Assembly: GCA_029561455.1 (NCBI GenBank)
Contig: JAKQIY010000068.1
Coordinates: forward strand, 434,001 to 498,000
Length of the DNA stretch: 64,000 bases
Direction: 5' to 3'
Source of the DNA: a bacterium
GTDB taxonomy: Bacteria > Zhuqueibacterota > Zhuqueibacteria > Residuimicrobiales > Krinioviventaceae
The translations under genes and the position numbers were made by a program. The notes beneath the pieces are model-generated. The model was not told where the DNA came from, ran no database searches, and was given only the letters and a program-made list of their open reading frames with translations. Shown here one piece after another: positions 13,799 to 46,368 of the stretch (position 1 is the first letter of the stretch; each line of letters opens with the position of its first letter).

Positions 13799-14935
13799 TT
13801 ATTTTATCAAGATCACTTTACTGGTTAACTGCACTTTATCAGCAGGAATTTCCATACGGTAAACATATACACCACTGGGTACAACCATACTGTTATTATC
13901 TGTGCCATCCCACCTGGCCGTATAAAGACCGGCGCTCATTTTTTCATCCACCAGGGACTTGACCAACTGACCACGCATATTATAAATATTTAATATAACA
14001 TTAGCCGGTTTGGATAGTCTATATTGTATATTGGTATTCATGTTAAAAGGATTCGGGTAACTGTGAAACAACTCATATTCAACCGGGATGCCATTTTTTG
14101 TAAATAAATTACGTGAGGTTACAGATGTCAAGGTGCGATCAATAATTCTTACCCGGTCAAAAAAGATATCAATCGTATTTCCGGCGATATTAAATTTAAA
14201 CACATTACCGGGATCGGTAAATGTATTCACAAATGTATAGGGACCGTATTCACCCGCGCCATCAATTACGACATCTTCGGCATAATAGGTTGTCCAGGGA
14301 TCCTGATTCATTTGCATGGCAATTTGGATTGTTTTTCTTTCTTCGGCATCACTATAAAACCAAATCTCATAAGTGTGATCGGGGACTAACGGCACATTCT
14401 GCCATAACTGGATATGCCAGTTTTCAGTACTGCCATTTGTTATATCAATATAAATATAACTTGAATCTTCAAAATACATATCATTGTAAATATGCGCAGT
14501 TGATGCAGCGCCCTGGTTATTTTGTAATTGCCAGGGAGCTATATTAATATCAAAATCACCATTTTTAAGTACATCACCGTTGCTAACATTGCCAACCCGA
14601 ATATGGATTGTATCGGAATCCGCTTGATTATTATCGGTGTCGCGAACACGGGCAAACACATTATAATTTCCGGATTTTACATTTTTCCATACATAAGATA
14701 ATGGATCGCCGGTAGCTTTGCCAATTACCGTATTACCATAATAAAAACGAATATCTTTAAAAGTTCCACTTGTGAGAAGCGGGGTAGCTGTAAGAGTAAT
14801 ATTGGACTTGGCGCTATAAGTAGCATCTCCGGATGGATTTGTCATCGTAACGCTTAAATCGGCAAATGCAAATTGCGCGGTAAAGATTACCAGTACAATC
14901 ATTAATAATGATCTGTGTAACAATGAGCGTGTCAT
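13799..14935 (-). CDS. Secreted carbohydrate-binding protein with sorting domain (tandem paralogue 1)
   Basis: A 378-residue secreted protein. After the signal peptide (ending near QFAFA) comes an Ig-like domain (~27-115, ITLTATPLLTSGTFKDIRFYYG, FARVRDTDNNQADSD). Next is a CBM4/9-like jelly roll (~120-270, NGDFDINIAPWQLQNN, WHIQLWQNVPLVPDHTYEIW). The C-terminal sorting domain (~295-378) reads SYPNPFNMNTNIQYRLSKP and ends KVILIK. It has no catalytic residues that I recognise and is probably a cell-surface or released glycan-binding protein. GGAGG precedes ATG 14935. It shares its whole domain order with the next two genes, so the three arose by tandem duplication. Confidence 0.85.
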   Translation of the reverse strand: MTRSLLHRSLLMIVLVIFTAQFAFADLSVTMTNPSGDATYSAKSNITLTATPLLTSGTFKDIRFYYGNTVIGKATGDPLSYVWKNVKSGNYNVFARVRDTDNNQADSDTIHIRVGNVSNGDVLKNGDFDINIAPWQLQNNQGAASTAHIYNDMYFEDSSYIYIDITNGSTENWHIQLWQNVPLVPDHTYEIWFYSDAEERKTIQIAMQMNQDPWTTYYAEDVVIDGAGEYGPYTFVNTFTDPGNVFKFNIAGNTIDIFFDRVRIIDRTLTSVTSRNLFTKNGIPVEYELFHSYPNPFNMNTNIQYRLSKPANVILNIYNMRGQLVKSLVDEKMSAGLYTARWDGTDNNSMVVPSGVYVYRMEIPADKVQLTSKVILIK

Positions 14936-15062
14936 AGTAATTACCTCCGTTTTGGATTAATCGCCTATCTTTAAACAAGTGTCATTAAACATAACGGATA
15001 ATTTATTATTAATCTCATCAAAAACAAGATTTTTGTTGTTTGACATTATTTTAAATAATAAA

Positions 15063-15086
15063 TGCCACCCGTGTATACGGGTGGCA
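15063..15086 (-). terminator. Terminator hairpin after tandem paralogue 2
   Basis: An 8-bp perfect stem (tgccaccc at 15063-15070, gggtggca at 15079-15086) is followed on the minus strand by TTTATTATTT. It lies 36 nt after the stop of the 15122-16267 gene. Confidence 0.75.
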
Positions 15087-15121
15087 AAAAACACTATCAC
15101 AAGTAATAAACGTGACCGTTA

Positions 15122-16267
15122 TTATTTAACCAATAAAACCTTACGGGTTAACTGTACATTTTCCGCCGGTATATTCATCTTAAAAATGTAAACACCACTG
15201 GGGACAACGAAATTTCCATTATCGGTTCCATCCCAATTAGCGGTATACAGACCGGCATTAACTTTTTCATTAACAAGTGATTTTACCAGTTGTCCCTGTA
15301 TGTTATAAACGTCCAGAACAACATCTGCGGTTTTGGAAAGACGATACTGAATGCTGGTGTTCATATTAAACGGGTTGGGGTAATTGTTCATTAATTCAAA
15401 AGTATTTATCGAGCCTGTTGTGGGATATAATTTATGTGAAGATACCGATGTTAATGTACGGTCAATAACCTGAACTTCATCAAAATAAATATCGATTGTA
15501 TTACCGCCTACACAGAATTTGAACTGGCTGGTGGGATCATCCGCAAGACAATCATACATAACCGGTCCATATAATGCGGCGCCATCGATTTCCACGCTTT
15601 GCCACAAATAGGTTGAATAATCATCATGGCTTTCCTGCATGGCAACTGTGATGGTCTTTTTTTCTTCAGAGTCTGCCATAAAGTAAACTTCATAGGTATG
15701 TTCGGCTAAAATTGGAAATGTTTGCAATAACTGAACATGCCAGTCGGCCGTGCCACCATTGGTTATATCAATATAAGCATAGGCGGAATCATTAAAATAC
15801 ATGTCCATTCTACGCTGAAGAGTTGCAGCCCCACCTTCATTGCCTTGAATGGACCAGGGAGCAGCGGTAAGATCGAAACCACCATTAATAATTTTATCTC
15901 CCCGGCTGACATTACCTACCCGAACATGAATAGGATCGGAATCTACCTGGTTACCGTCAGTATCGCGTACCCGGGCAAAAATATCGTAATTTCCAGACCT
16001 GGCATTTTCCCAGGTATATGAATAGGTTGGCAGGGAACCGACGCCTTTACCGATAATAGCGGTACCGTAATAAAACCGCACATCACGAAAAGTTCCGCTT
16101 GTGAGTTGAATATCAGCGGTCAGAGTGATAGGTTGTCCTACCGGAAAAACAGTTTCATCAGCAGGATTTGTCATTATAACAATAATATCGGCAAATAACA
16201 GTTGATATGGCGCAATAAAGATAGCCAAAACAAAAAGGAACAGAAATCTCATCGCATTTTTTGACAT
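15122..16267 (-). CDS. Secreted carbohydrate-binding protein with sorting domain (tandem paralogue 2)
   Basis: A 381-residue protein of the same build as its neighbours: signal peptide, Ig-like domain with TSGTFRDVRFYYGTAIIGKG, jelly roll with NGGFDLTAAPWSIQGNEGG and WHVQLLQTFPILAEHTYEVY, and sorting domain NNYPNPFNMNTSIQYRLSKT ending KVLLVK. The jelly roll differs from paralogues 1 and 3 in the ligand-facing loops (AMQESHDDYSTYLWQSV against AMQMNQDPWTTYYAEDV), suggesting different glycan ligands. GGAGG precedes ATG 16267. It has its own terminator, so it is probably transcribed separately. Confidence 0.85.
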   Translation of the reverse strand: MSKNAMRFLFLFVLAIFIAPYQLLFADIIVIMTNPADETVFPVGQPITLTADIQLTSGTFRDVRFYYGTAIIGKGVGSLPTYSYTWENARSGNYDIFARVRDTDGNQVDSDPIHVRVGNVSRGDKIINGGFDLTAAPWSIQGNEGGAATLQRRMDMYFNDSAYAYIDITNGGTADWHVQLLQTFPILAEHTYEVYFMADSEEKKTITVAMQESHDDYSTYLWQSVEIDGAALYGPVMYDCLADDPTSQFKFCVGGNTIDIYFDEVQVIDRTLTSVSSHKLYPTTGSINTFELMNNYPNPFNMNTSIQYRLSKTADVVLDVYNIQGQLVKSLVNEKVNAGLYTANWDGTDNGNFVVPSGVYIFKMNIPAENVQLTRKVLLVK

Positions 16268-16447
16268 GATAATAACCTCCGCTTTTAAATATTGTATGTT
16301 AATAATTTAACCAAGTATCACGAATTATAAAGATTGAATTTATACCCATTTTCCAGACAAAACTTTACATTAACATCTTATTATAAAAAATAATTAATAA
16401 AAAAGCAAAATAAAAAAACCTGAATAGAACTTTTTGCTTTTTTAATA

Positions 16448-16473
16448 ACACCGCCTGTATAAACAGGCGGTGT
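16448..16473 (-). terminator. Terminator hairpin after tandem paralogue 3
   Basis: An 11-bp perfect stem (acaccgcctgt at 16448-16458, acaggcggtgt at 16463-16473) with a 4-nt loop sits just after the stop at 16484. TTATT follows on the minus strand, a weak T tract. Confidence 0.7.
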
Positions 16474-16483
16474 CTGGTATTTA

Positions 16484-17632
16484 TTATTTCAGGAGTAATG
16501 CTTTATGAGTCAACTGTACTTTATCGGCCGGTATTTCCATACTAAAAATATAAACACCGCTGGGCATTACCAAACCGTTATTATCGAGGCCATCCCATTG
16601 CGCGGTAAACAAACCGGCAGCGACATGCTGATTGATTAAATTCCTGATCAGTTGTCCATTGACATTGTAAATGTTTATCATCATCCCTGCAGGCTTGGAC
16701 AGTCGATATTGAATATTAGTACATAGGTTGAAGGGATTGGGATAATTACGCAATAATTCATAGTGTGATATCTGGCCGTTATGGGATGACAGATCCCGCG
16801 AGGTTACCGATGTCATAGTACGGTCAATTATACGAACACGATCGAAAAAGCAATCAATGTTATTACCACCGATATTAAATTTGAACAGATTTGTCGGATC
16901 ATCAAAGGTATTTACAAAAGTATATGGTCCAAATTCAGCTGCGCCATCGATTTCAACTTGTTCACTAAAATAAACGGTGTAGGGATCATGATTCATCTGG
17001 TAAGTCAAACTGATTGTCTTTTTTTCTTCAGCATCGGTATAAAACCATAACTCATAAGTATGATCAGGCACCAGGGGTACGAGATGTTGTAACTGAATAT
17101 GCCAATCTGCGGTGCTGCCGTTAGTAACATCAATATAAACATAATTGGTATCTTCAAAATACATATCGCTATAGACATAACCGGTAGAAGTTGCGCCTTC
17201 ATAGTTTGAAAGCACCCACGGTGCAAGGCTATAGTCAAAATCGCCGTTCATAATCACATCGCCATGACTAATATTACCCACATGGATCAGGATAGAATCG
17301 GAATCAACCTGGTTGCCATCAGTATCACGTACACGGGCAAAAACATAGTAATTACCGGACTTGACATTTTCCCAGGTAAAAGAATAAGTGGGAAGTGAAC
17401 CGTTAGCCTTACCCATTGATCTGTTGTTATAAAATAACCGGCAGTCGCGAAATGAGCCTTCCGTTAACTCAACATTGGCGGTGAAGGTAATATCCGACCC
17501 AACCTGGAATGAAGTTCCGGAAGCCGGATTGGTTAAATTGACTGTTATAGCAGCACGGGTTTGTTTTACAGGAATAAAAGCCAATGAAACCAGCACAGTC
17601 ACAAACAATAATTGTAACAAACGTTTTTTCAT
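16484..17632 (-). CDS. Secreted carbohydrate-binding protein with sorting domain (tandem paralogue 3)
   Basis: A 382-residue protein with the same layout: signal peptide (MKKRLLQLLFVTVLVSLAF), Ig-like domain (TFTANVELTEGSFRDCRLFY), jelly roll (MNGDFDYSLAPWVLSNYEGA, WHIQLQHLVPLVPDHTYELW) and sorting domain (RNYPNPFNLCTNIQYRLSKP). It ends KALLLK. ATG 17632 is preceded by GGAGG; an ATG at 17647 overlaps that site and is rejected. It looks closer to paralogue 1 than to 2 in the jelly roll (PYTFVNTFDDPTNLFKFNI against PYTFVNTFTDPGNVFKFNI). Confidence 0.85.
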   Translation of the reverse strand: MKKRLLQLLFVTVLVSLAFIPVKQTRAAITVNLTNPASGTSFQVGSDITFTANVELTEGSFRDCRLFYNNRSMGKANGSLPTYSFTWENVKSGNYYVFARVRDTDGNQVDSDSILIHVGNISHGDVIMNGDFDYSLAPWVLSNYEGATSTGYVYSDMYFEDTNYVYIDVTNGSTADWHIQLQHLVPLVPDHTYELWFYTDAEEKKTISLTYQMNHDPYTVYFSEQVEIDGAAEFGPYTFVNTFDDPTNLFKFNIGGNNIDCFFDRVRIIDRTMTSVTSRDLSSHNGQISHYELLRNYPNPFNLCTNIQYRLSKPAGMMINIYNVNGQLIRNLINQHVAAGLFTAQWDGLDNNGLVMPSGVYIFSMEIPADKVQLTHKALLLK

Positions 17633-17902
17633 AAGACTATCCTCCATATTATTAATTTACAATCTAATTCTACATTTATTATATAACCTTGATCAGAGAA
17701 AATTTGTTTCATACTGTCACTTATGAAAACAAGAATTAATTCTCCGACCACTAGTAGAAAGTATAGAAAAAAAATCAAAAAGTAAAATAAAAAATTGTAA
17801 AGAAATGTTTCATAACTTACTTTGAAACAGGAATAATAATCTGTCTTCTTGAAGATATGAGCATCAGGGGAATTAAAGAAAAAATCAGGTATGCGATGTA
17901 AT

Positions 17903-33610: not shown

Positions 33611-36469
33611 CTACTTGATCAGCATCATCTTTCTCATATCCGTAAAGCCCTCGGCGTCCATGCGCAGGAAATACAGGCCTGATGAAAGTTTATTACCCGC
33701 ATCATCAGTCCCGTCCCACACAACTTGATAATTACCCGGATACTGATAATCTTCACACAAAATCTTGACACATGAGCCCTGAGTATTAAGAATAGTCATT
33801 TTAACTTTTGACAGATTCGGCAACTTGTAGATAATATTTGTGACAGGATTAAAGGGATTCGGATAGTTTTGCATTAACGCATACTGTTGTGGTAATTGAG
33901 TGGCAGGTTTTAAATCAGTTGTAATTGATGTTGTAAAGGTCATATCCTCACCATACGATGTTCCGGCAGTACTGTTCGCTTTTACCCGGTAATGAAAAGT
34001 AACATTCGACTCCAAACCATTCAAGACGGCGCTAACTGCGGTAGTATTCGTACCGGAAATCGGACTATTGGCCGCAATAATTTCACTGCTATAATCAGCA
34101 GTCAAACCATATTGGAATGTTACAGTTGACGAAATACCGTTTGCATTTACAAAGCCATTTAAAGTAGCGGAAGAATCCGTAACATTCGTTGCCGCGGAAG
34201 TAATTACAAAAGCAGGGTTACCGATAGTTGCAAACGTTGCATCCTCACCAAAAGTTGTACCGCCAGAATTAGTTGCCAAAACCCGGTAATGAAAAGTAGT
34301 ATTGGGAGTCAAACCGTTTAACGATGCCTGAACTGAGGTTGTCTCTGTGCCGGTAACAGGACTACTGGCGGCTGTTATTTCACTGCCATAACTTTCAGAT
34401 ACACCATATTGAAATTTTACGATTGCTGAGACTCCATTTGGATTTACATAGCCGTTTAAAATGGCGGTGGATTGAGTTATATTTGTTGCCGGGGATGTGA
34501 ATACAAAAGGAAGATTTGCAGTGGTGGTAAAAATGGCATCATCGCCAAAAGATTTACCCCCGGAATTGGTAGCAACCACACGATAATGATAAATAGTGTT
34601 GGGTGTTAAGCCAGATATTTCAGCACTTACATTTGTTAAAGCAGTACCGCTCACCGGACTGTTAAAGGCGTATATTTCACTCCCGTAATTTTCTGATGTT
34701 CCATATTGAAAAATTACGGATGTGGATTGATTGTTGGCATTAACCTTGCCATTCACAGAGGCTGTGGTTTGGGTTACATTTGTCGCCGGGAAAGTAGTAA
34801 CGACCGGCGCTTTGGCAGTTGGCGTAAAAGTGAAATCATCACCATAGGATGTACCGGCTGAATTGGTCGCAACAACCCGGAAGTGATATAGAGAGTCGGC
34901 TAACAGGTTTGATATATCAACATGGACAAGTGAAAAAGTAGTGCCATTGAGCGGACTGTTAATGGCAAACACTTCATTACTATAATTTGTCGATATTCCA
35001 TATTGAAATTTTACAGTTGTTGGCAAGCCTCTGGCATTAACACGACCATTTAACCGGGCGGTTGTAAGGGTAACATCCGTAGCTTCACTGGTGATAGCGA
35101 CAGGCTCACAATTTTCACAAGTATTGCCAGCTAAAAGAACTGCTGTGCCAAACAAAGAAGCGTCCTGCCAGGAATTATTGTCATTACTCCACCACCTGGT
35201 CTCGCCACTGCGGTACAAGCTGGGATCATCCTGGTCGTTGAACTGGACTTCAAAACCAATGAACATATCTTCCTCAGGTGTCCAGCCAAGTTCTGAATAC
35301 GGTATTTTCCACTCCATAGTCCAACCCCACTCGGTCACCTGGCAAGCATAATCGGCAGCAGGGGTATCGGAGAATAAACGGCGCAATTGCTTGTCATTTA
35401 TATCATAGGGAATACCGTCGTTTGTAAAATCATTTTTGCTATTGTCTCCGTCAAAATATAATTCAAAGCCATCTTTTTCCCAGTCGCCTCCAACTTCCGT
35501 GCTGATTATGTCATCACGGACATTGGCAAAGAAATAGAAATAGTTATCATCCCACATTACCCGGAAATCGAAATCCATATCGTTCCAGTCATCAACTCTT
35601 TCATAGATGTTCCAGGTATCATCCGGGACATAGGCATTTTGAGTAATATATGTATTACTGGAGAAATCCGGTGAAACATCCCAAATTTCCTCCATAACAC
35701 CATCAATTTGCGGCTCTGCAGGCGCTTTGATAATTCGTAGTACTTCTCCTGCAATATAGTCATCAAGGGCAGCGGTGCCGAAAATGCTGGGATCATACCA
35801 GGAATTGTTGGAAACGTCCCACCAGCGCCAACCGGAATTGCGTATACCGGTATCATTATCATTATTTTGAATCTCAAAACCAAATTCCCATTCTTCAGCC
35901 GGTATAATCTGTAAATCGGCAAGGGGTATAGACATTTCCATAAAGTAACCAATATCTGTAAAGGTAAAAACGAATACGATCCCTGAATTATCCATACCCC
36001 AGTCTCCACCGGAATTACCATACCCACGATCTATATCAGTACCATATAAATATGTTGTATTGATACGTAATTGCACATCATCATAACCATCAAAAAATTG
36101 AGGCGCTTTAGAATTATCAGCATCAAAATATAACTCGATGCCATCCTGGTCCCAGGGGTTAGCAGCATCAGAATTTATAATATCATCATGGAAAATAAAA
36201 AACCCATACAGATTTTCATCATCATAAAGTAATTTAAATTGACCCCATAAATCAAACCAGTCATCCGGGGGATTATCGCTATCCAATGCTTTTGTCATAA
36301 CCGTATTGGTTACACTGTACCAGATAGGGTCCATTTCGCCGTCTATCACTGGCGGTACTTCAGCCCTGGGTATTTGGAGTATCGAATTCACGTCCAGGGT
36401 GGCTTGTAAAGATGTAGCCAGGGAAAAAATCACAACAAACAAAATTACCAATAAAGAACAGGATCTCAT
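33611..36469 (-). CDS. Large secreted protein: two CBM9-like domains, four Fn3-like modules, sorting domain
   Basis: A 952-residue protein with a signal peptide. Two carbohydrate-family-9-like (DOMON-type) domains follow at ~30-230 (PPVIDGEMDPIWYSV, DDENLYGFFIFHDD) and ~240-440 (EPQIDGVMEEIWDV, DWEKDGFELYFDGDNSKND). Four ~95-residue Fn3-like modules span ~455-845, each opening with an ATxVT..TA.LNG pattern and ending YHYRV-x5-GT-x-YG. The sorting domain is MQNYPNPFNPVTNI ending KMMLIK. It is the largest of four paralogues and is separated from the other three by 545 bp, so it is transcribed on its own. GGAGG precedes ATG 36469. Likely a surface or released glycan-binding protein; no catalytic domain seen. 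Confidence 0.85.
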   Translation of the reverse strand: MRSCSLLVILFVVIFSLATSLQATLDVNSILQIPRAEVPPVIDGEMDPIWYSVTNTVMTKALDSDNPPDDWFDLWGQFKLLYDDENLYGFFIFHDDIINSDAANPWDQDGIELYFDADNSKAPQFFDGYDDVQLRINTTYLYGTDIDRGYGNSGGDWGMDNSGIVFVFTFTDIGYFMEMSIPLADLQIIPAEEWEFGFEIQNNDNDTGIRNSGWRWWDVSNNSWYDPSIFGTAALDDYIAGEVLRIIKAPAEPQIDGVMEEIWDVSPDFSSNTYITQNAYVPDDTWNIYERVDDWNDMDFDFRVMWDDNYFYFFANVRDDIISTEVGGDWEKDGFELYFDGDNSKNDFTNDGIPYDINDKQLRRLFSDTPAADYACQVTEWGWTMEWKIPYSELGWTPEEDMFIGFEVQFNDQDDPSLYRSGETRWWSNDNNSWQDASLFGTAVLLAGNTCENCEPVAITSEATDVTLTTARLNGRVNARGLPTTVKFQYGISTNYSNEVFAINSPLNGTTFSLVHVDISNLLADSLYHFRVVATNSAGTSYGDDFTFTPTAKAPVVTTFPATNVTQTTASVNGKVNANNQSTSVIFQYGTSENYGSEIYAFNSPVSGTALTNVSAEISGLTPNTIYHYRVVATNSGGKSFGDDAIFTTTANLPFVFTSPATNITQSTAILNGYVNPNGVSAIVKFQYGVSESYGSEITAASSPVTGTETTSVQASLNGLTPNTTFHYRVLATNSGGTTFGEDATFATIGNPAFVITSAATNVTDSSATLNGFVNANGISSTVTFQYGLTADYSSEIIAANSPISGTNTTAVSAVLNGLESNVTFHYRVKANSTAGTSYGEDMTFTTSITTDLKPATQLPQQYALMQNYPNPFNPVTNIIYKLPNLSKVKMTILNTQGSCVKILCEDYQYPGNYQVVWDGTDDAGNKLSSGLYFLRMDAEGFTDMRKMMLIK

Positions 36470-37014
36470 AAGACCTCCTTTAAATGATGTTTTTATGTAA
36501 TTTAGTAAGCTGTTTTTATTTTAGTAGCAATTAATACTTTGATTAAAGAACAACTTTAATAACCAGGTGATGATCTGGTTAGTATATCAATCATAAAAAT
36601 TAAGGTATAACAAAGAAATAAATTGACAGTTATTAAAGAATTCTTTAAATAGAGGGGCAGAGAATATCAAGCAAAGTGGAGGAAAAATTTATTAAATTCT
36701 TTTTTTATCAGTAAAAATTATATTCGATACGTCACGATTTTTCTTAATATGGGGTCGATTTCTTTATATATTGATCCCAAAATATTCTTCACAACAAAAA
36801 AGCGGGAAAGTAAATTTCATGGTAATGGATTTATTTATCATCAGATTCAATAAATTGAATTTTTTGCTACAATTATTAATCGTGTCCTTTTTACTAGAAA
36901 AATTATAAGTAAAAATGACATCTTAATTCCCAGTAAAAAATGTAATCAGATCCGAGTTCTGCAATTAAGCAGGTATGTATAGTTATAGTTAATACCTGTT
37001 ACGAAATTCACCTC
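36470..37014. other. 545-bp intergenic, AT-rich, no gene
   Basis: It contains the promoter of the 952-residue paralogue on one side and the 3' end of the three-gene paralogue operon on the other. Apart from the stem-loop at 36970-36998, I see no open frame with coding character. Confidence 0.5.
36970..36998 (-). terminator. Stem-loop after the CBM9 paralogue operon
   Basis: caggtat (36970-36976) pairs with atacctg (36992-36998) about 16 nt after the stop at 37015. The T tract is weak. Confidence 0.45.
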
Positions 37015-39282
37015 CTACTTGACCAGCATGATCTTTTTCATATCCGTAAAGCCATCGGCGTCCATGCGCAGGAAATACAGGCCTGATGCTACTTGAGCGC
37101 CCGATTCGTCCGCGCCTTCCCATAACAGTGGATAGCGGCCGGGGCCCTGCGCGCCGGTGAACAGCGTCCGCACCAGTTCGCCTTGCAGGTTATAGATCAT
37201 GATCTTAACATGCGAGTTCACCGGCAACTCATAAACAATATTCGTCACCGGGTTGGCGGGATTGGGGAAATTCTGCTGCAAGGAGAATTGCTGGGGTACA
37301 GGCAAGCTGGCGGCAATATCAGTCGATTCCAAAGTAGTAAACGTCATATCCCGGCCATAAGCCGTGCCGGCGGTACTGGAGGTCACAACCCGGTAATGAT
37401 ATGTTGTGTTGGCAGTTAAACCTGTCACATTTGCGCTTACCAGGGTGGTGATTGTATCGGTAACTGTACTATTTACTGCCGAATACTGTTTATCATAATT
37501 TAAAGACTCACTATATTGAAATATTACAGTGGTTGGAATCCCTTTAGCATTTACCTCGCCATGTAATACGGCGGTAGTTGGCGATATATCGGTTGCCGTT
37601 TGCGTCTGCACTACGGGTAAATCGGGAGAGGTGGTAAAGGATGTACCATAGGTATAGGTTTTATACGAACCCCAGTTAGCTATTACCCGATAATAATAAG
37701 TAGTATTTGGGATTAAATCGAACAAATCTGCATATGCCTCTTTATTTAATGCATTAATGACAGGGCTGTTGGCAGCGATTATTTCCTTACCATAATGTGG
37801 ATTGTTACCCCATTGAAATTTAACTCCGGTCGGTATTCCTTCATAAACCACCTTCACATAACAGTTAATCCGGGCAGATATACTGGTTACATCAGTAGCT
37901 TCACACACTTGCACATCAGGCCAACAATTGCCACAACAATATCCAGATACTACAATTGCAGTACCAAACATTGAAGCATCCTGCCAGGTATTATTATCAT
38001 TACCCCACCACCTGGCAATGCCGCTTCGTAGTAAAGCAGGATCATCCTGGTCATTTAATTGTACCTCAAATCCAATAATGTTATCATAAGGATCAAAGCC
38101 CAGATCAGTTAATGGGATCCTCCATTCCATAGTCCAACCCAATTCAGTTCTTTGGCAAGCGCAATCATCAGTCGGTGTATCGCTAAAAATCTGGCGTAGA
38201 TGTTTATCATTATCATCATAAGGAATACCATTATGGGTAAAATCATTTTTACTGTTGTCACCGTCAAAAAATAGTTCAATGCCGTCTTTTTGCCAATCTT
38301 CTCCTGCTTCTGTGCTGATCATGTCATCGCGGACAGTGGCAAAAAAATACAAATAATAATCGTGTGTCATAACACGAAAATTAAAATCCATATCATTCCA
38401 GTCATCAACACGTTCATAAATATTCCAGGCTTCATCAGGGATATAAGCATTATGAGTTACAAAAGTATTACTGGAATAATCCGGTATACCCTGCCAGGCA
38501 TCATCCAAATAACCGTCAATAACAGGTTCTGAAAATGAAGGTTCAATTCTTAAAGTATCACTGGCAATATAACCGTTCCAATAAGTAAAACCAAATTTAC
38601 TGGCATCAAACCAGGAACTATCGGTAGAACTCCACCACCGCCAGCCGGAATCACGTACTCCTGTATCACTATCATTGATCTGCACTTCAAGACCGATTTC
38701 ATCATTATAATGCGCATCAAGTTGCAGTGCGTAAAGTGGAATAGAGATTTCAAGATTATAGCCAAGTTCGGTCTGTTGAAATGCGAAAACTATACCGGAA
38801 TTATCAAAACCCCAGTTGAAGCCATTATTACCATAATATGCTTCAACATCAGTACCACTCAGCCATTCTGTATTGATGCGTAACTGCACATCATTAACAC
38901 CATCATAAACACCTTCAGTATAGGAATTATCAGAATTAAAAAAAAGATCAATGCCGTCCTGATCCGTTGAATTGGCGTTTGTTGAATTGATACTGTCATC
39001 ATGGATAATAAAAAAACCGTAAAGGTTCAGATCATCATGCATTAATTTAAATTTTCCCCACAAATCGAACCAGTTATCTGGTGCAGCTTCTTTTTCCAGG
39101 GGTTTGGTCATTATAGAATTCGTAACACTGTACCAGATCGGGTCCATTTTCCCATCGATTACTGGTGCAAAGCTTGCACTAGGAATCAATTGCAATAATT
39201 CAGCATCAAAGGAAGCGTATATTGAGTTGACCTGGAACAATACCACAATCAACATAACCAGAATAAAAGTTAGACGATACAT
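37015..39282 (-). CDS. Secreted protein: two CBM9-like domains, two Fn3-like modules, sorting domain
   Basis: A 755-residue paralogue of the 952-residue protein. CBM9-like domains lie at ~25-230 (APVIDGKMDPIWYSV, IDLFFNSDNSYTEG) and ~235-440 (EPVIDGYLDDAWQGI, DWQKDGIELFFDGDNSKND). Two Fn3-like modules follow (EATDVTSISARINCY; ATDISPTTAVLHGEV), then a sorting domain with QQNFPNPANPVTNI ending KKIMLVK. In this sorting domain Ala replaces the usual Phe of PNPFN, a change shared with the next two genes. It is the last gene of a three-gene operon starting at 43569. GGGAGG precedes ATG 39282. Confidence 0.85.
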   Translation of the reverse strand: MYRLTFILVMLIVVLFQVNSIYASFDAELLQLIPSASFAPVIDGKMDPIWYSVTNSIMTKPLEKEAAPDNWFDLWGKFKLMHDDLNLYGFFIIHDDSINSTNANSTDQDGIDLFFNSDNSYTEGVYDGVNDVQLRINTEWLSGTDVEAYYGNNGFNWGFDNSGIVFAFQQTELGYNLEISIPLYALQLDAHYNDEIGLEVQINDSDTGVRDSGWRWWSSTDSSWFDASKFGFTYWNGYIASDTLRIEPSFSEPVIDGYLDDAWQGIPDYSSNTFVTHNAYIPDEAWNIYERVDDWNDMDFNFRVMTHDYYLYFFATVRDDMISTEAGEDWQKDGIELFFDGDNSKNDFTHNGIPYDDNDKHLRQIFSDTPTDDCACQRTELGWTMEWRIPLTDLGFDPYDNIIGFEVQLNDQDDPALLRSGIARWWGNDNNTWQDASMFGTAIVVSGYCCGNCWPDVQVCEATDVTSISARINCYVKVVYEGIPTGVKFQWGNNPHYGKEIIAANSPVINALNKEAYADLFDLIPNTTYYYRVIANWGSYKTYTYGTSFTTSPDLPVVQTQTATDISPTTAVLHGEVNAKGIPTTVIFQYSESLNYDKQYSAVNSTVTDTITTLVSANVTGLTANTTYHYRVVTSSTAGTAYGRDMTFTTLESTDIAASLPVPQQFSLQQNFPNPANPVTNIVYELPVNSHVKIMIYNLQGELVRTLFTGAQGPGRYPLLWEGADESGAQVASGLYFLRMDADGFTDMKKIMLVK

Positions 39283-39323
39283 ATTGACCTCCCAAAATCA
39301 AGTACCAATAATTTTTATGCACA

Positions 39324-41585
39324 CTATTTGATCAGCATGATCTTTTTCATATCCGTAAAGCCATCGGCGTCCATGCGCAGGAAATACAGGCCTGATGCTA
39401 CTTGAGCGCCCGATTCGTCCGCGCCGTCCCATAACAGCGGATAGCGGCCGGGGCCCTGCGCGCCGGTGTACAGCGTCCGCACCAGTTCGCCTTTGAGGTT
39501 ATAGACGGTGATATTGACATTTGACCCAACCGGCAGCTCATAAACAATGTTCGTCACCGGGTTGGCGGGATTGGGAAAATTCTGCTGTAAAGAGAATTGC
39601 TGCGGTACAGGCATGGTTGGTGCAATATCAGTCGATTCTAAAGTCGTAAACGTCATATACCGACTATAAGCCGTGCCGGCGGTACTGGTGGTCACAACTC
39701 TATAATAATAAGTTAAATTCGGAAACAGGCTGGTCAACCTGGCTTTTACAGAAGAAAAGCCTGTATTTGTAAGCGGACTTTCAAAAGCAGGTATTTCATT
39801 TCCATAATCAATCCATCTGCCATACTGAAATGTTACCGTTGCTGGCGTTTCTTTTATATCAACCTCACCCTGTAATAGCGCAGTTGTTGAAGTAATTTCG
39901 GTTGCCGGTAAAGAATGAACGACCGGCAAAACGGATGAGGTTGTAAATGTTTTATCTTCTCCATCAACATCACAAAACAATTGAAACGCATTCACCCGGT
40001 AATGATAGGTGGTATTGGGCAACAAATCTGTAAGTTCAGCAAAAACAGGAAGTGTTATATTTCCAATAATGGGACAATGGATAGCTGTTATCTCTTTATC
40101 ATAATCTGAAGTGAGTCCATATTGAAATTTAATCATTGTTCCTGAATCACCATTATGGACAATACCATTCAAGCGGCATGACGTCTCTGTTATATCGGTT
40201 GCATCACATGTAATTGGAACAAGGTCACATCCAGAATCACAGACTGGGGGAATGTAAGCAGTTCCAAACATGGAAGCATCCAGCGAGGCATTATTATCAT
40301 TACCCCACCAGCGCATAGCGCTGCTGCGCAACAACGCCGGATCGTCCTGATCGTTTAACTGCACATCAAATCCAAATTCACTGTTCCATTCCGGTGTCCA
40401 GCCCAGTTCCGAATAAGGTATTCGCCATTCCATGGTCCAGCCCGACTTGGTTACCTGGCAGGCACAATCATTGGTCGGAATATCGCTAAAAACCTGGCGA
40501 TAATGCCGATCATTATCATCATAAGGAATTCCTTCATTAGTAAAATCATTTTTACTGTTATCGCCGTCAAAGTAGAACTCGATTCCATCCTTTTCCCAGT
40601 CCTCTCCGGCTTCGGTACTAATAATGTCGTCATAGACATTGGCAAAAAGATAAAAACAATATGAACCGTACATAATACGAAAATCAAAATATGCATCTTT
40701 CCAATCTTCGAGTCGTTCATAGATATTCCAGGCATCTGGAATGTATGCAGTCTGAGTAACATAATTATGACCTGAAAAAACAGGGGCTTCACTCCATGAT
40801 TCTTCCATAATACCATCAATTACAAAATCAATGTATGATTTTATAATAGGTAATTTCCCATCAATAGTCATATAATCCATCCCGGCGCTGCCCCAAATAC
40901 TGGGGTTTTGCCAGGAATTGCCGCTGCTGCTCCACCATTTCCACTCAGCGGAACGGGCATCTCCATCATTATCGTTGATCTGTACTTCAAAACCGAAATC
41001 CCAACCGACGGTCCCTTCCATCATTAAATTGGTAAGTGGAATGACGCTTTCCAGAGCATACCCAAATTCGGTAAATTTGAACGCCCAATCTATACCGGAT
41101 CTGGCAAAGGGGGCAGACGGCCACTCTCCAGTTGTGCCAAAGCCGGTTTCCGGATGAATACCGTCCGGCACCCATTGGGTATTGAAACGTAGCTGGATAT
41201 CATCCAGAGTGTCAAAAGTTTCCATTTTGCTGTTATCGGCATCAAAATAGAGTTCGATTCCATCTTGTTCCCAAGTGTTGACAGCTTCCGGCTGAATAAC
41301 ATCATCATGGACATCAATGAACAGGTAGAGATTGCTATCGTCCCATAATAATTTTACTTTACCCCACACATCGAACCAGTCATCAATTGTATAACCGGTG
41401 ACCAATTTTTCCAGCAGCAGGTTGCTTACACAGTACCACACCGGGTCCATTTCACCGTCAATGACCGGCGGCACTTCCGCTTTGGGGAACCAGTAAGTAG
41501 AATCGGCATCCAGAGTGGCCTGGGCAGCTCCGGTATGCAACAGAATAATTACCAAAGCGATCAGCAATAAAGTAAAACGATACAT
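39324..41585 (-). CDS. Secreted protein: two CBM9-like domains, two Fn3-like modules, sorting domain
   Basis: A 753-residue paralogue. CBM9-like domains: PPVIDGEMDPVWYCVSNL and DGIMEESWSEAPVFSGHNY, each followed by the KDGIEFYFDGDNSKND type acidic loop. The Fn3-like modules open DATDITETSCRLNG and ATEITSTTALLQGEV. The sorting domain has QQNFPNPANPVTNI ending KKIMLIK. The first domain is closest to that of the 41596-43569 protein (same ADSTYWFPK opening and HPETGFG against HPEAGFG). It starts 10 nt after the preceding gene's stop, with GGGAGG before ATG 41585. Confidence 0.85.
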   Translation of the reverse strand: MYRFTLLLIALVIILLHTGAAQATLDADSTYWFPKAEVPPVIDGEMDPVWYCVSNLLLEKLVTGYTIDDWFDVWGKVKLLWDDSNLYLFIDVHDDVIQPEAVNTWEQDGIELYFDADNSKMETFDTLDDIQLRFNTQWVPDGIHPETGFGTTGEWPSAPFARSGIDWAFKFTEFGYALESVIPLTNLMMEGTVGWDFGFEVQINDNDGDARSAEWKWWSSSGNSWQNPSIWGSAGMDYMTIDGKLPIIKSYIDFVIDGIMEESWSEAPVFSGHNYVTQTAYIPDAWNIYERLEDWKDAYFDFRIMYGSYCFYLFANVYDDIISTEAGEDWEKDGIEFYFDGDNSKNDFTNEGIPYDDNDRHYRQVFSDIPTNDCACQVTKSGWTMEWRIPYSELGWTPEWNSEFGFDVQLNDQDDPALLRSSAMRWWGNDNNASLDASMFGTAYIPPVCDSGCDLVPITCDATDITETSCRLNGIVHNGDSGTMIKFQYGLTSDYDKEITAIHCPIIGNITLPVFAELTDLLPNTTYHYRVNAFQLFCDVDGEDKTFTTSSVLPVVHSLPATEITSTTALLQGEVDIKETPATVTFQYGRWIDYGNEIPAFESPLTNTGFSSVKARLTSLFPNLTYYYRVVTTSTAGTAYSRYMTFTTLESTDIAPTMPVPQQFSLQQNFPNPANPVTNIVYELPVGSNVNITVYNLKGELVRTLYTGAQGPGRYPLLWDGADESGAQVASGLYFLRMDADGFTDMKKIMLIK

Positions 41586-41595
41586 AATGACCTCC

Positions 41596-43569
41596 CTATT
41601 TTATCAGCATGATCTTTTTCATATCCGTAAAGCCATCGGCGTCCATGCGCAGGAAATACAGGCCTGATGCTACTTGAGCGCCCGATTCGTCCGCGCCGTC
41701 CCATAACAGCGGATAGCGGCCGGCACCTTGCTCGCCATTATAAAGCGTCCGCACCAGTTCGCCTTGCAGGTTATAGACGGTGATCTTGACATGAGAACCA
41801 ACCGGCAATTCATAAACAATGTTCGTCACCGGGTTAGCGGGATTGGGGAAATTCTGCTGTAAAGAGAATTGCTGAGGTAAGGGGATGGTTGTTGAAATAT
41901 CCGTAGAACTCAAAGTTGTAAAGGTCATATCTTCACCACTACCGGTATGACAGGAACTGCTGGCGACAAAACGGTAATGATAGGTTGTATCTGGAATAAG
42001 ATCATGTAAATCACCAGAGAATATCATTTCATATTTATTTTTAATGGGTGAATCGGTAATTATAATCTCCGAGCCGTAAGAGGTAGTGGTTCCATATTGA
42101 AACCGCAAATTAGTAGGGTAGCTATCAATATAAGCCATACCGTATACCCGTGCGGAAGTGGAGGTAATATCGGTTGCTTCCATAGTTATCGCAATTGGCC
42201 AGCACTCATTGCAACAACAACATCCCTGGATATTTATAACTGCAGTACCCAGCATGGAAGCATCCAGCCAGGCATAATGGTCGGTTCCCCACCATCTCAT
42301 GATGCCGCTGCGTTTTAATGCCGGGTCATCCTGATCATTCAACTGCACATCAAAACCGATTTCCAAACCTCTTTCCGGGTTCCAGCCGAGGTCGGTATAA
42401 GGAACACGCCACTCCATGGTCCAGCCGGTTTCAGTACGTTGACAGGCATAATCATCGGCGGGAATATCACTGAAAACCCGACGCAGTTGCCGGTCGTTGG
42501 CATCATAAGGTATACCCTCATTTAAATAATCATTTTTACTGTTGTCTCCGTCAAAGTAGAGTTCAATACCATCCTTTTCCCATTCTTCACCAGCTTCAAT
42601 AGAGATAATATCATCATAGACGGTGGTAAAGAGGAAAAAAAACTCTTCATTGCTCATTACCCGAAAATCAAAGTACATATCTTTCCAGTCATCAACCCTT
42701 TCGTAAATATTCCAGTCATCGGGAACATTGGCAGTTTGTGTGACATAATTATGGGCGGAAAAAACCGGACAATGCTCCCATGCATCATCCAAAATCCCAT
42801 CAATAACCGGTTCATCGTAAGCACCTTCAACCGGCAAGCTTCCATCAGTAGAGATATTATCCATCCCGGCGCTACCCCAAATACTCGGTAGCTGCCAGGA
42901 ATTGCCGCTGGTGCTCCACCATTTGTATTCGGCGGAACGGGCATCTCCATCATTGTCATTGATCTGTACTTCAAAACCAAAATCCCAATCTGAAACGCCT
43001 TCCATCAGCAAATTAGCCAGAGGTATGCATCCTTCCAGCACGTACCCAAAATCGGTAAATCTGAATACCCAATCTATACCGGTTCTGTCAAAGGGAGCAG
43101 CCGGCCATTCCCCCATTCCGCCAAAACCGGCTTCCGGATGAATACCGTCCGGTACCCAATCAGTATTAAAACGTAACTGTATATCATCAATCGTGTCAAA
43201 AGTTTCACACTTACTGTTATCAGCATCAAAATACAGTTCAACGCCATCTTGTTCATAGGTGTTGGTCGCGTCCGGCTGGATAACATCATCATGAACATCG
43301 ATGAACAAGTATAAATGGCTATCGTCCCATAATAATTTTACCCTGGCCCACACATCGAACCAGTCATCGATTGCATAACCGGTCACCAATTTTTCCAGTA
43401 CCAGGTTGGTTACACTGTACCACACCGGGTCCATTTCGCCGTCGATGATTGGCGGTTCACTTGTTTTTGGAAACCAGTAAGTAGAATCGGCATCCAGAGT
43501 GGCCTGGGCAGCATTAACCTGGGACAATGCAATAACAGCAATTATCAAAATAACCGGAAACCGTAACAT
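41596..43569 (-). CDS. Secreted protein: two CBM9-like domains, one Fn3-like module, sorting domain
   Basis: A 657-residue protein, the shortest of the four paralogues. It has a signal peptide (MLRFPVILIIAVIALSQ), CBM9-like domains (PPIIDGEMDPVWYSV; EPVIDGILDDAWEHC), a single Fn3-like module (EATDITSTSARVYGM), and a sorting domain (QQNFPNPANPVTNI) ending KKIMLIK. ATG 43569 has GGGAGG directly upstream; an in-frame ATG at 43623 would place 18 residues before the signal peptide. It is first in the operon and reads away from the CotH gene across a 495-bp divergent gap. Confidence 0.85.
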   Translation of the reverse strand: MLRFPVILIIAVIALSQVNAAQATLDADSTYWFPKTSEPPIIDGEMDPVWYSVTNLVLEKLVTGYAIDDWFDVWARVKLLWDDSHLYLFIDVHDDVIQPDATNTYEQDGVELYFDADNSKCETFDTIDDIQLRFNTDWVPDGIHPEAGFGGMGEWPAAPFDRTGIDWVFRFTDFGYVLEGCIPLANLLMEGVSDWDFGFEVQINDNDGDARSAEYKWWSTSGNSWQLPSIWGSAGMDNISTDGSLPVEGAYDEPVIDGILDDAWEHCPVFSAHNYVTQTANVPDDWNIYERVDDWKDMYFDFRVMSNEEFFFLFTTVYDDIISIEAGEEWEKDGIELYFDGDNSKNDYLNEGIPYDANDRQLRRVFSDIPADDYACQRTETGWTMEWRVPYTDLGWNPERGLEIGFDVQLNDQDDPALKRSGIMRWWGTDHYAWLDASMLGTAVINIQGCCCCNECWPIAITMEATDITSTSARVYGMAYIDSYPTNLRFQYGTTTSYGSEIIITDSPIKNKYEMIFSGDLHDLIPDTTYHYRFVASSSCHTGSGEDMTFTTLSSTDISTTIPLPQQFSLQQNFPNPANPVTNIVYELPVGSHVKITVYNLQGELVRTLYNGEQGAGRYPLLWDGADESGAQVASGLYFLRMDADGFTDMKKIMLIK

Positions 43570-44064
43570 AATACCTCCCAAATTTTTGAACCCGTCTGGC
43601 CCGCTAAATAGGGTAATATCCACAGCAGGTTTGGAAAAGATTATTCACAAAAACAGTATTACAAAATGCACTTTTAATAATGATCACTATTGCTGCGTAT
43701 GTGGAGTAATACTTGTTCATATACCCGCACAAAAAAAGTGAGATGCATTATTGCATCAAAAAAAATCGCCCGTGTCAGGAACAAATTCCTGGTTAAATAT
43801 ATTAAATTAGTAGTTGTTTGTCAATTCTTTTTTCAAAAATATCAAAAATTTACGGATTATTAATTGAAATCATAAATGACAAACCAGGCAATAACACAAC
43901 CGATCCGGGGTGAACAAGATGGTTGTTTTTTTTATAGCAATCTCGTATATTCGTCAATGCCGGCTCTTGCAGGCGCGGGCAAATTTGCGTTTACCAATTC
44001 TAACCAATTTCATATAATTAATAACCGGAAAAATATCCACAAACCAGAGATTGCGGACCGATAA
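43570..44064. other. 495-bp divergent promoter region
   Basis: It separates the minus-strand CBM9 operon from the plus-strand CotH/sulfatase genes and must hold both promoters. It is AT-rich. I see no convincing sigma-70 pair or inverted repeat, and the open frame at 43876-44064 is not credible as a gene. Confidence 0.5.
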
Positions 44065-46368
44065 ATGAACCGAACGACTACCAACCCAGGATATAAAATT
44101 CAAATAATGACCGGATACGGGCTAGTGCTCGCCACCCTGTTGCTGTTTATCACCAACTCTCCAGCCATCGCTGCACAGCAGGAAGTGATAATACTGCCCG
44201 AATCGGCGGACAAGCTGGTTCTGATCCCGGGATCAAGTATCGGTAATGACTGGCGCAATAACCTGGAAATAGAAGAGGACGGCTGGCTGCTGTGCATGGG
44301 CGCTCCGGGGGGAGTTGGTTTTGATCTTGAAAAAAAATATGACCAGTTTATCAGCCTGGATGTCAGCGATTATATGTCCTTGTCCGCTGAATTCCCTTCG
44401 ACCACCTGTTATATCCGCATTAAATTCGAGTTAACCGGCGAACAAGTAGATGATATATCCCTGTTATTGTTAAAAATACGTTATGACGACGGATTTGTCC
44501 TGTATTTAAACGGGGAGCGGATTGCTGCCGCCAATGCGCCAAACCGCCTCAACTGGGATTCTCATGCCACAGCGCAACATGATGGCGCAGAACCCGTCGA
44601 ATACAATATCACTTTGTTTAAAGAACTGCTGGTTGCCGGAGAAAACCTGCTGGCCATTCAGGGTTTGAACAATTCGTCCAGCGATCCGGACTTTCTGATC
44701 CTGCCGCAACTCGTCTCCGCGCCCAGTCCGTTTAGCGATACGACCAAATCCAATTTACCCCTGGTGTTCATCGATACCGAAGACCAGGAAATTCCCCAGG
44801 ATTATCGCATCCCGGCATACATGGGAGTTATCGACAACGGCCGGGATCAATGGCATTCTCTGCAGGATTCACTCAACAATTATAATGGCCGTATCAATAT
44901 TGAAGTGCGCGGCTCCAGTTCCGCTGGCTGGCAAAAAAAACAATATGGTTTGGAAACCCAGGATGAAAACGGCAATAACCTGAACACCCCGCTGCTCGGC
45001 CTGCCGGAGGAAAACGACTGGATATTGAACGCTCCCTATATCGACAAATCCCTGCTGCGTAATGTGCTCACCTACCGGTTGGCGCGGGATATGGGTCGTT
45101 ATGCTTCCCGCACGCGGTATTGTGAACTGTTCCTGAACGAGGACTATAAGGGTATTTACATTTTAATGGAAAAGATCAAACGCGATAACAATCGCGTGGA
45201 TATTGCGGCGCTTGATTCAACAGATGTAGAAGGCATTCAGGTAACCGGTGGGTACATTCTAAAAATCGACAAATCCGGCGATGACGGTTTTGCTTCTGCC
45301 TACCGGCCTGCAAACGGACTGAACCGGACGATTTTTTACCAATATCATTACCCGGCCGATGATGAAATCCTGCCGCAGCAAAAAGAGTATATTCAAAACT
45401 TTATCAGGGAATTTGAAGACTGTATGGCCGGGGAGAACTATAACGACCCGGATTCCGGCTATCAAAAATATATCGATATGGATTCGTTCATTGATTTTAT
45501 CATTATCAATGAACTGGCCAAGAATGTGGATGGTTACCGGATCAGCACCTTTCTCTATAAAGAACGAGATAAAAAGAACCAGCTTGGACTGCTTTACGCC
45601 GGTCCGGTGTGGGATTTTAACCTCGGTTATGGCCTGGCGAATTATTATGACGGCGAAGACACCGACGACTGGATGCTGGAAGAGTTGTCGTTTGGCGAGG
45701 GAATCCAGGGAGACGGCTCGCATGTGCCCTTTTGGTGGAGCAAACTGTTTCACGACCCGGCCTTTTCGCGACAATTCAGGCAGCGCTGGCATACGCTGCG
45801 CGCTGATGTGTTGGCTATTGACCGGATCCATCAGTTCATCACTGCCTGCGCCGATACCCTCGACGCCGCTCAGGAGCGGAATTTCACTATCTGGACCGGT
45901 CCGGGAGAGCCGCGTAGTTTTGGCGACGGCTTTTGGCCGGTGCCGGATATATTTTACTCATTTTCAACTTACCAGGATGAAGTGGATTATTTAAAAGCCT
46001 GGATTGAAGAGCGTATAATCTGGATTGATGAGAATATCGACCATATAACCGCCATCACCGGCCCGGAAAAACAGTTGCCTTTGACATTGCAGCTTGCCCA
46101 AAATTCACCCAATCCGTTCAACAGCGAAACCCGGATAGAATTTTGTCTGCCCACTGCCACCACGGTTTGCCTTGAAATATACAATGTTCAGGGTCAAAAA
46201 ATCAAAACCCTGGTGAACCGCCGGGAACCCGCCGGAACTGTAACTGTTAAATGGGACGGTCTGGATGAGTACGGAAGACCGGCCGCCAGCGGCATGTATT
46301 TCTGCCGCCTGAGCGATGGCGGCAATTCCAGCCTGGCTATAACCAGAAAAATGCTGTTGCTTAAATAG
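44065..46368 (+). CDS. Secreted CotH-kinase-family protein with sorting domain
   Basis: A 767-residue protein. The signal segment (MTGYGLVLATLLLF...AIAAQQ) is followed by a jelly-roll-like region (~80-225, IRYDDGFVLYLNGERIAAANA). The CotH domain (~245-640) shows EVRGSSSAGWQKKQYGLET, DKSLLRNVLTYRLARDMG, CELFLNEDYKGIYILMEKI and the metal-binding GPVWDFNLGYG. The sorting domain has NSPNPFNSETRI ending KMLLLK. CotH of Bacillus spores is an atypical protein kinase; secreted homologues in Gram-negatives have unknown targets. A start at 44107 would give a better-placed signal peptide; neither start has a clear ribosome site. It is followed 64 nt later by a sulfatase. Confidence 0.85.
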   Translation: MNRTTTNPGYKIQIMTGYGLVLATLLLFITNSPAIAAQQEVIILPESADKLVLIPGSSIGNDWRNNLEIEEDGWLLCMGAPGGVGFDLEKKYDQFISLDVSDYMSLSAEFPSTTCYIRIKFELTGEQVDDISLLLLKIRYDDGFVLYLNGERIAAANAPNRLNWDSHATAQHDGAEPVEYNITLFKELLVAGENLLAIQGLNNSSSDPDFLILPQLVSAPSPFSDTTKSNLPLVFIDTEDQEIPQDYRIPAYMGVIDNGRDQWHSLQDSLNNYNGRINIEVRGSSSAGWQKKQYGLETQDENGNNLNTPLLGLPEENDWILNAPYIDKSLLRNVLTYRLARDMGRYASRTRYCELFLNEDYKGIYILMEKIKRDNNRVDIAALDSTDVEGIQVTGGYILKIDKSGDDGFASAYRPANGLNRTIFYQYHYPADDEILPQQKEYIQNFIREFEDCMAGENYNDPDSGYQKYIDMDSFIDFIIINELAKNVDGYRISTFLYKERDKKNQLGLLYAGPVWDFNLGYGLANYYDGEDTDDWMLEELSFGEGIQGDGSHVPFWWSKLFHDPAFSRQFRQRWHTLRADVLAIDRIHQFITACADTLDAAQERNFTIWTGPGEPRSFGDGFWPVPDIFYSFSTYQDEVDYLKAWIEERIIWIDENIDHITAITGPEKQLPLTLQLAQNSPNPFNSETRIEFCLPTATTVCLEIYNVQGQKIKTLVNRREPAGTVTVKWDGLDEYGRPAASGMYFCRLSDGGNSSLAITRKMLLLK

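Follow-up and report, generated by a model that had tools for sequence, protein, structure and literature searches.

The window analyzed here, a 64,000-nt stretch of contig JAKQIY010000068.1 (GCA_029561455.1), contains four tandem genes on the same strand, designated g1 to g4; coordinates given below are positions within this window unless a contig is named. The first, g1 (33611..36469, minus strand), encodes a 952-aa protein with two CBM9_1 domains, Fn3-like/purple-acid-phosphatase-N repeats, and a T9SS type A sorting tail. Two CBM9_1 domains, an Fn3-like segment, and a T9SS sorting tail are likewise encoded by g2 (37015..39282, minus strand; 755 aa) and g3 (39324..41585, minus strand; 753 aa). 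The fourth gene, g4 (41596..43623, minus strand; a 675-aa ORF from a GTG), has two CBM9_1 domains and the sorting tail; Fn3-like linkers are present only in g1–g3. In the alignment, an internal ATG of g4 (at MLRFP) lines up with the starts of g1–g3, and the N-termini of all four proteins are hydrophobic by eye. The surrounding genes are those of carbohydrate use: GH26, GH20, GH18, a sulfatase, a heparinase-like protein, a sodium:solute symporter, and ROK proteins. A divergent neighbor (44065–46368) encodes a CotH-kinase-like protein with a T9SS tail of its own, which is not homogenized with those of the CBM9 genes.

The sorting tails occupy 33611..33898 in g1, 37015..37302 in g2, 39324..39611 in g3, and 41596..41883 in g4, all on the minus strand. 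A TIGR04183-like domain was detected at the extreme C-terminus of all four proteins (25.2, 31.9, 32.8, and 33.9 bits; NCBIfam cut-off, 23), and PF18962 scored 25.5–27.3 bits on the tails, i.e., around its cut-off of 27. Judged as T9SS type A sorting domains (TIGR04183/PF18962), the four tails surpass the NCBIfam cut-off, and the domain itself is ordinary. The same genome encodes the PorU sortase (879 bits; cut-off, 420) and the SprA translocon (a sum of 897 bits across the frame; cut-off, 200). It also has no fewer than 150 sorting tails, and the loci examined here contained 158 tail ORFs. Given the sorting domain and the presence of PorU and SprA, g1–g4 are predicted to be secreted T9SS cargo, and their tails would serve the export of the CBM9 proteins.

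The 3′ ends of these genes are strikingly alike at the nucleotide level. A 93-nt block that encodes GADESGAQVASGLYFLRMDADGFTDMKKIML is identical in g2 (37024..37116), g3 (39333–39425), and g4 (41605–41697), exactly as had been claimed. The original prediction also put the identity between g3 and g4 at 119 nt; the two are indeed identical, but the true length is 121 nt (39331..39451 and 41603..41723, minus strand), as the match extends 2 nt further left and includes the 93-nt block. In g1, a 65-nt block (33620..33684, minus strand) matches g2–g4 with three mismatches, again precisely as predicted; these read D/E, K/R, and I/M, so that all three are nonsynonymous. The identity ends within the coding sequence, with the last two codons and the stop differing among the genes (GTCAAGTAG, ATCAAATAG, ATAAAATAA, and ATCAAGTAG), and the intergenic DNA of g1–g4 is unrelated. 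Over the tail as a whole, the last 286 nt of g2 are approximately 92% identical to g3 and 90% identical to g4. The tail of g1 is about 57% identical at the amino-acid level, and its nucleotide-level sharing covers only the last ~23 codons. The chance that two independent codings of the 31-aa peptide encoded here would coincide is approximately 4e-13, given this gene set’s codon usage. In pairwise run tests, the longest identical run had a permutation p of ≤ 1e-4. These tests replaced a Sawyer-type test of silent-site runs that took three or four genes at once; the latter has little power here, since three of the genes do not vary at all within the key block.

To compare synonymous divergence by domain, pS was scanned in 40-codon windows along the gene alignment. 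In the gene bodies, it was approximately 0.5–0.99 in most windows, which is near saturation. In the last 40 columns, the values were 0.04–0.11 among g2, g3, and g4, and 0.31–0.43 between g1 and the other three. The wide upstream divergence that had been claimed alongside the conserved ends is borne out, and the low pS is limited to the tail, not spread equally along the whole genes. Codon choice tells the same story: at conserved degenerate residues in the last 40 columns, identical codons were used at 32/34, 32/34, and 35/36 positions in the g2/g3/g4 pairs, and at 143/281, 120/242, and 209/331 (~50–63%) in the bodies of the same pairs. One exception to the saturation of the bodies is the first CBM9 of g3 and g4 (40794–43456), which is ~80% identical at the amino-acid level with a pS of 0.29 to ~0.55; the second CBM9 is saturated. 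This first domain is a second segment, older or of a different age, that was probably exchanged.

The segments of these genes also have conflicting phylogenies. In approximately unbiased (AU) tests, the topology of the tail was rejected for the first CBM9 (p = 2e-7), and that of the first CBM9 was rejected for the tail (p = 7e-4); the second CBM9 did not discriminate between them. A fifth relative on contig C76 (L085) is itself a composite: its first CBM9 is 70–72% identical to those of g3 and g4, its second is nearest to that of g1 (70%), and its tail is just 30–38% identical to that of any of g1–g4. Within the tails of g2, g3, and g4, similarity declines gradually across ~120 codons, and sites at which one gene is the odd one out are clustered. 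Because the odd gene changes from cluster to cluster, these data suggest several overlapping tracts of different ages.

Is this pattern peculiar to the CBM9 genes? Across the genome, near-identical segments (≥ 50 nt and 92% identity) were found in 42 pairs involving 37 of the 158 cargo genes; most were same-strand neighbors, and the segment often lay in the tail. Per base, shared segments were about seven times as frequent in the last 270 nt as in the upstream sequence, a difference due in part to the higher protein conservation of the tail. One candidate duplicate, an “identical 91 nt” at L074, turned out to be one piece of DNA read in two overlapping frames; it is counted among the 42 pairs, and the count is therefore slightly inflated. 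At four sets of genes (L083, L123, L070, and L152/L132), a segment in or near the tail had a pS of 0.07–0.20 against 0.54–0.72 in the body. At L083, the tail value was 0.07 and the body value 0.63; at L123, a pS of 0.10 was found at codons 80–120 from the end. The passengers at L070 are unlike (a beta-propeller vs. no known domain), with a pS of 0.10 in the tail and 0.72 in the body. L152 and L132, which lie on different contigs and carry M10 and S8 protease passengers, respectively, had a pS of 0.06 over the last 30 codons and ~0.70 in the body. Upstream segments have been exchanged as well at L083, L084, and L078. Across 48 testable neighbor pairs, codon identity was 0.576 in the tail vs. 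0.488 in the body (p = 0.0007, although the pairs are not independent); among the 23 neighbor pairs whose bodies are clearly homologous, the excess in the tail amounted to only a trend (p = 0.098). Homogenization was absent from array L071 and from a tandem trio of T9SS genes in the window itself (13799–17647; Big_7, CBM_4_9, and sorting tail), which serves as a negative control. L081 and L160 also share 164 nt, but this match sits at the ends of contigs and could stem from the assembly.

A genome of the same family but a different genus (G006), assembled in five contigs, yielded four pairs with near-identical segments by the same criterion of ≥ 50 nt and 92% identity. In three of them (L194, L204, and L198/L211), the last 60 codons had a pS of 0.00–0.10 and the bodies were 27–52% identical at the amino-acid level; the passengers at L204 are a GLUG-repeat protein and a 165-aa ORF. 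The remaining pair, L213/L224, was rejected as a tail-limited case, as it is instead a near-whole-gene duplicate (body, 93% amino-acid identity; pS, 0.18). A short motif, AAAACCGGACAAAC, occurs downstream of several dispersed T9SS genes in the two genera (L152 and L132; L213/L224 of G006), in one case also in reverse complement, and is absent from the 64,000-nt window; possible identities are a terminator and a REP-like repeat.

We conclude that the 3′ ends of g1–g4 have very probably been homogenized by repeated short-tract ectopic homologous recombination, that is, by segmental gene conversion between neighbors in direct orientation. Local synonymous divergence far below that of the rest of the gene, to a degree that amino-acid constraint does not account for, and conflicting segment phylogenies, the hallmarks of segmental gene conversion, were both found. 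The case is built on saturated synonymous divergence in the bodies next to near-zero divergence in the tails, on the conflicting domain trees, on the mosaic odd-one-out sites, and on the recurrence of the pattern in further arrays and in G006; all of these support the prediction that the tail has undergone gene conversion or exchange. The prediction was too narrow in confining exchange to a tail cassette, as upstream segments move too (those at the three loci named above and probably also the g3 and g4 copies of the first CBM9). Nor does homogenization extend to T9SS arrays in general, since the trio in the same window has none.

The most serious competitor to gene conversion is a recent duplication or fusion by unequal crossing-over that placed one tail on different, pre-existing bodies. 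Near-identical tails on unlike passengers (L152/L132, L204, and L070) are what such capture would produce, and the relative on C76 pairs a first CBM9 like that of g3 and g4 with a different tail. However, a single capture fits poorly with the gradual fall-off over ~120 codons and the mixed odd-one-out sites in g2–g4. Moreover, in g1 only the last ~23 codons are shared and the rest of the tail is its own; therefore, a tract within a resident tail was replaced. We regard capture as possible but doubtful as the explanation for g1–g4.

Alternatively, if the 3′ ends carried a regulatory or RNA signal or an overlapping reading frame, or if codon bias were strong, constraint on the nucleotides themselves could have frozen the synonymous sites there. 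Those sites are almost invariant in three of the genes, and g1 differs over its 65 nt only nonsynonymously. Yet the other T9SS tails of the genome encode the same residues in other ways: tail pairs on different contigs (n = 11,874) used identical codons at a fraction of only 0.416 of conserved residues, and there is thus no general freezing of tail codons. Same-strand neighbors less than 3 kb apart averaged 0.572. Opposite-strand neighbors averaged 0.409, but there are only 8 such pairs by which to judge a preference for direct orientation. Fractions above 0.7 were found in 11 of 54 neighbors vs. 11 of the 11,874 other-contig pairs. Many pairs classed as other-contig join C43 and C80, which are probably a single array. 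As for the block itself, the suggested search of the genome found near-identical copies in g1–g4 only, with none elsewhere in the 5.85-Mb assembly. Among 19 relatives, 18 had no match to the block in their DNA, and the nineteenth had a single match of 55 nt at 80%. Other arrays, furthermore, are homogenized to different sequences, sometimes upstream of the tail, and in g1–g4 the identity stops a few codons short of the stop. Constraint is accordingly a very unlikely explanation.

We hold it to be just as improbable that repeat copies were collapsed or misjoined in a short-read assembly. Such assemblies do falter at these sequences: contigs C80 and C43 are broken within a T9SS tail, where the end of the former overlaps the start of the latter by 81 exact nt. 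Because of that overlap, the T9SS genes at G000:C80:166466-183350 (L084) and G000:C43:1-17051 (L079/L080/L087) are probably one array of more than 12 cargo genes that was split by the assembler. The copies in g1–g4, by contrast, are placed apart in a 540-kb contig, with private flanks and tail variants, neither of which a collapse would give; a misjoin might permute flanks but cannot make identity at three places. The occurrence of the same phenomenon in the five contigs of G006 also disfavors an artefact. Finally, a dedicated cassette-switching system (a site-specific recombinase, shufflon, or retroelement) has only the modular appearance of the genes in its favor and is the least credible of all, given that the scanned ORFs of the window include no recombinase, transposase, or reverse transcriptase domain, that the locus lacks inverted repeats of ≥ 40 nt, that tract ends vary and do not fall at a single site, and that no silent cassettes were seen.

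If segmental gene conversion is responsible, the likeliest process would be RecA-type ectopic recombination acting in short tracts between directly repeated neighbors. The sorting tail is the most protein-conserved segment among the cargo and presumably retains the runs of identical sequence on which homologous recombination depends. Conversion that begins in the tail would renew this identity, raising the chance of more conversion there. The sequence data show the exchange itself; that it depends on RecA, starts in the tail, or brings an advantage is inferred. Homogenization of the tails and the occasional re-assortment of passengers and tails would both be by-products of recombination, possibly tolerated because any tail fits the one secretion machine. 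As for the original proposal that a homogenized tail would let passengers be swapped, transfers of a tail from one kind of passenger to another have taken place both here and in G006, but swapping as the function of homogenization is not demonstrated. It appears to be a consequence or an opportunity, and nothing indicates selection for it.

There are precedents for such exchange. In Porphyromonas gingivalis, hagA, rgpA, and kgp carry identical repeats within and between genes, for which gene conversion by homologous recombination has been proposed (PMC5266723). The gingipains and HagA resemble the products of g1–g4 in being T9SS-exported, modular surface proteins with shared identical stretches (PMC5266723). 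In that host-associated pathogen, the shared repeats described are adhesin domains, studied by comparing strains (PMC5266723); here, in contrast, the shared part is the sorting tail of CBM9 proteins, and dozens of cargo genes in one genome are involved. Prokaryotic paralogues such as tufA and tufB undergo concerted evolution by gene conversion (PMC6053082) and, like the ends of g1–g4, attain synonymous and nonsynonymous identity through it (PMC6053082). Conversion of tufA/tufB is full-length over long times (PMC6053082), whereas that of g1–g4 is segmental, with the remainder of the genes saturated. Strict concerted evolution would make paralogues within one species more alike than their orthologues across species; no orthologous g1–g4 cluster turned up among the relatives searched, and a search of the GTDB species collection with g3 gave no confirmed hit. 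Our search of the literature found nothing on tail-limited conversion across a T9SS secretome, and only P. gingivalis as a precedent; the search was incomplete and is weak evidence of novelty.

In T9SS-bearing bacteria, export tails of a single type may be shared by hundreds of cargo genes. A more speculative extension, which we think rather unlikely to hold, is that the conserved sorting tail serves this bacterial lineage as a recombination hub across the genome, seeding exchange between cargo genes, keeping tails uniform, and allowing new passengers to be joined to a functional export signal. In practice, a tree or an annotation built on sorting tails blends different histories, and short-read assemblies break at T9SS tails. 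If the tails do seed recombination, this would help to explain how T9SS secretomes gain and re-assort passenger domains; were the hub reading true, it would mean a faster evolution of a secretome of more than 150 cargo proteins.
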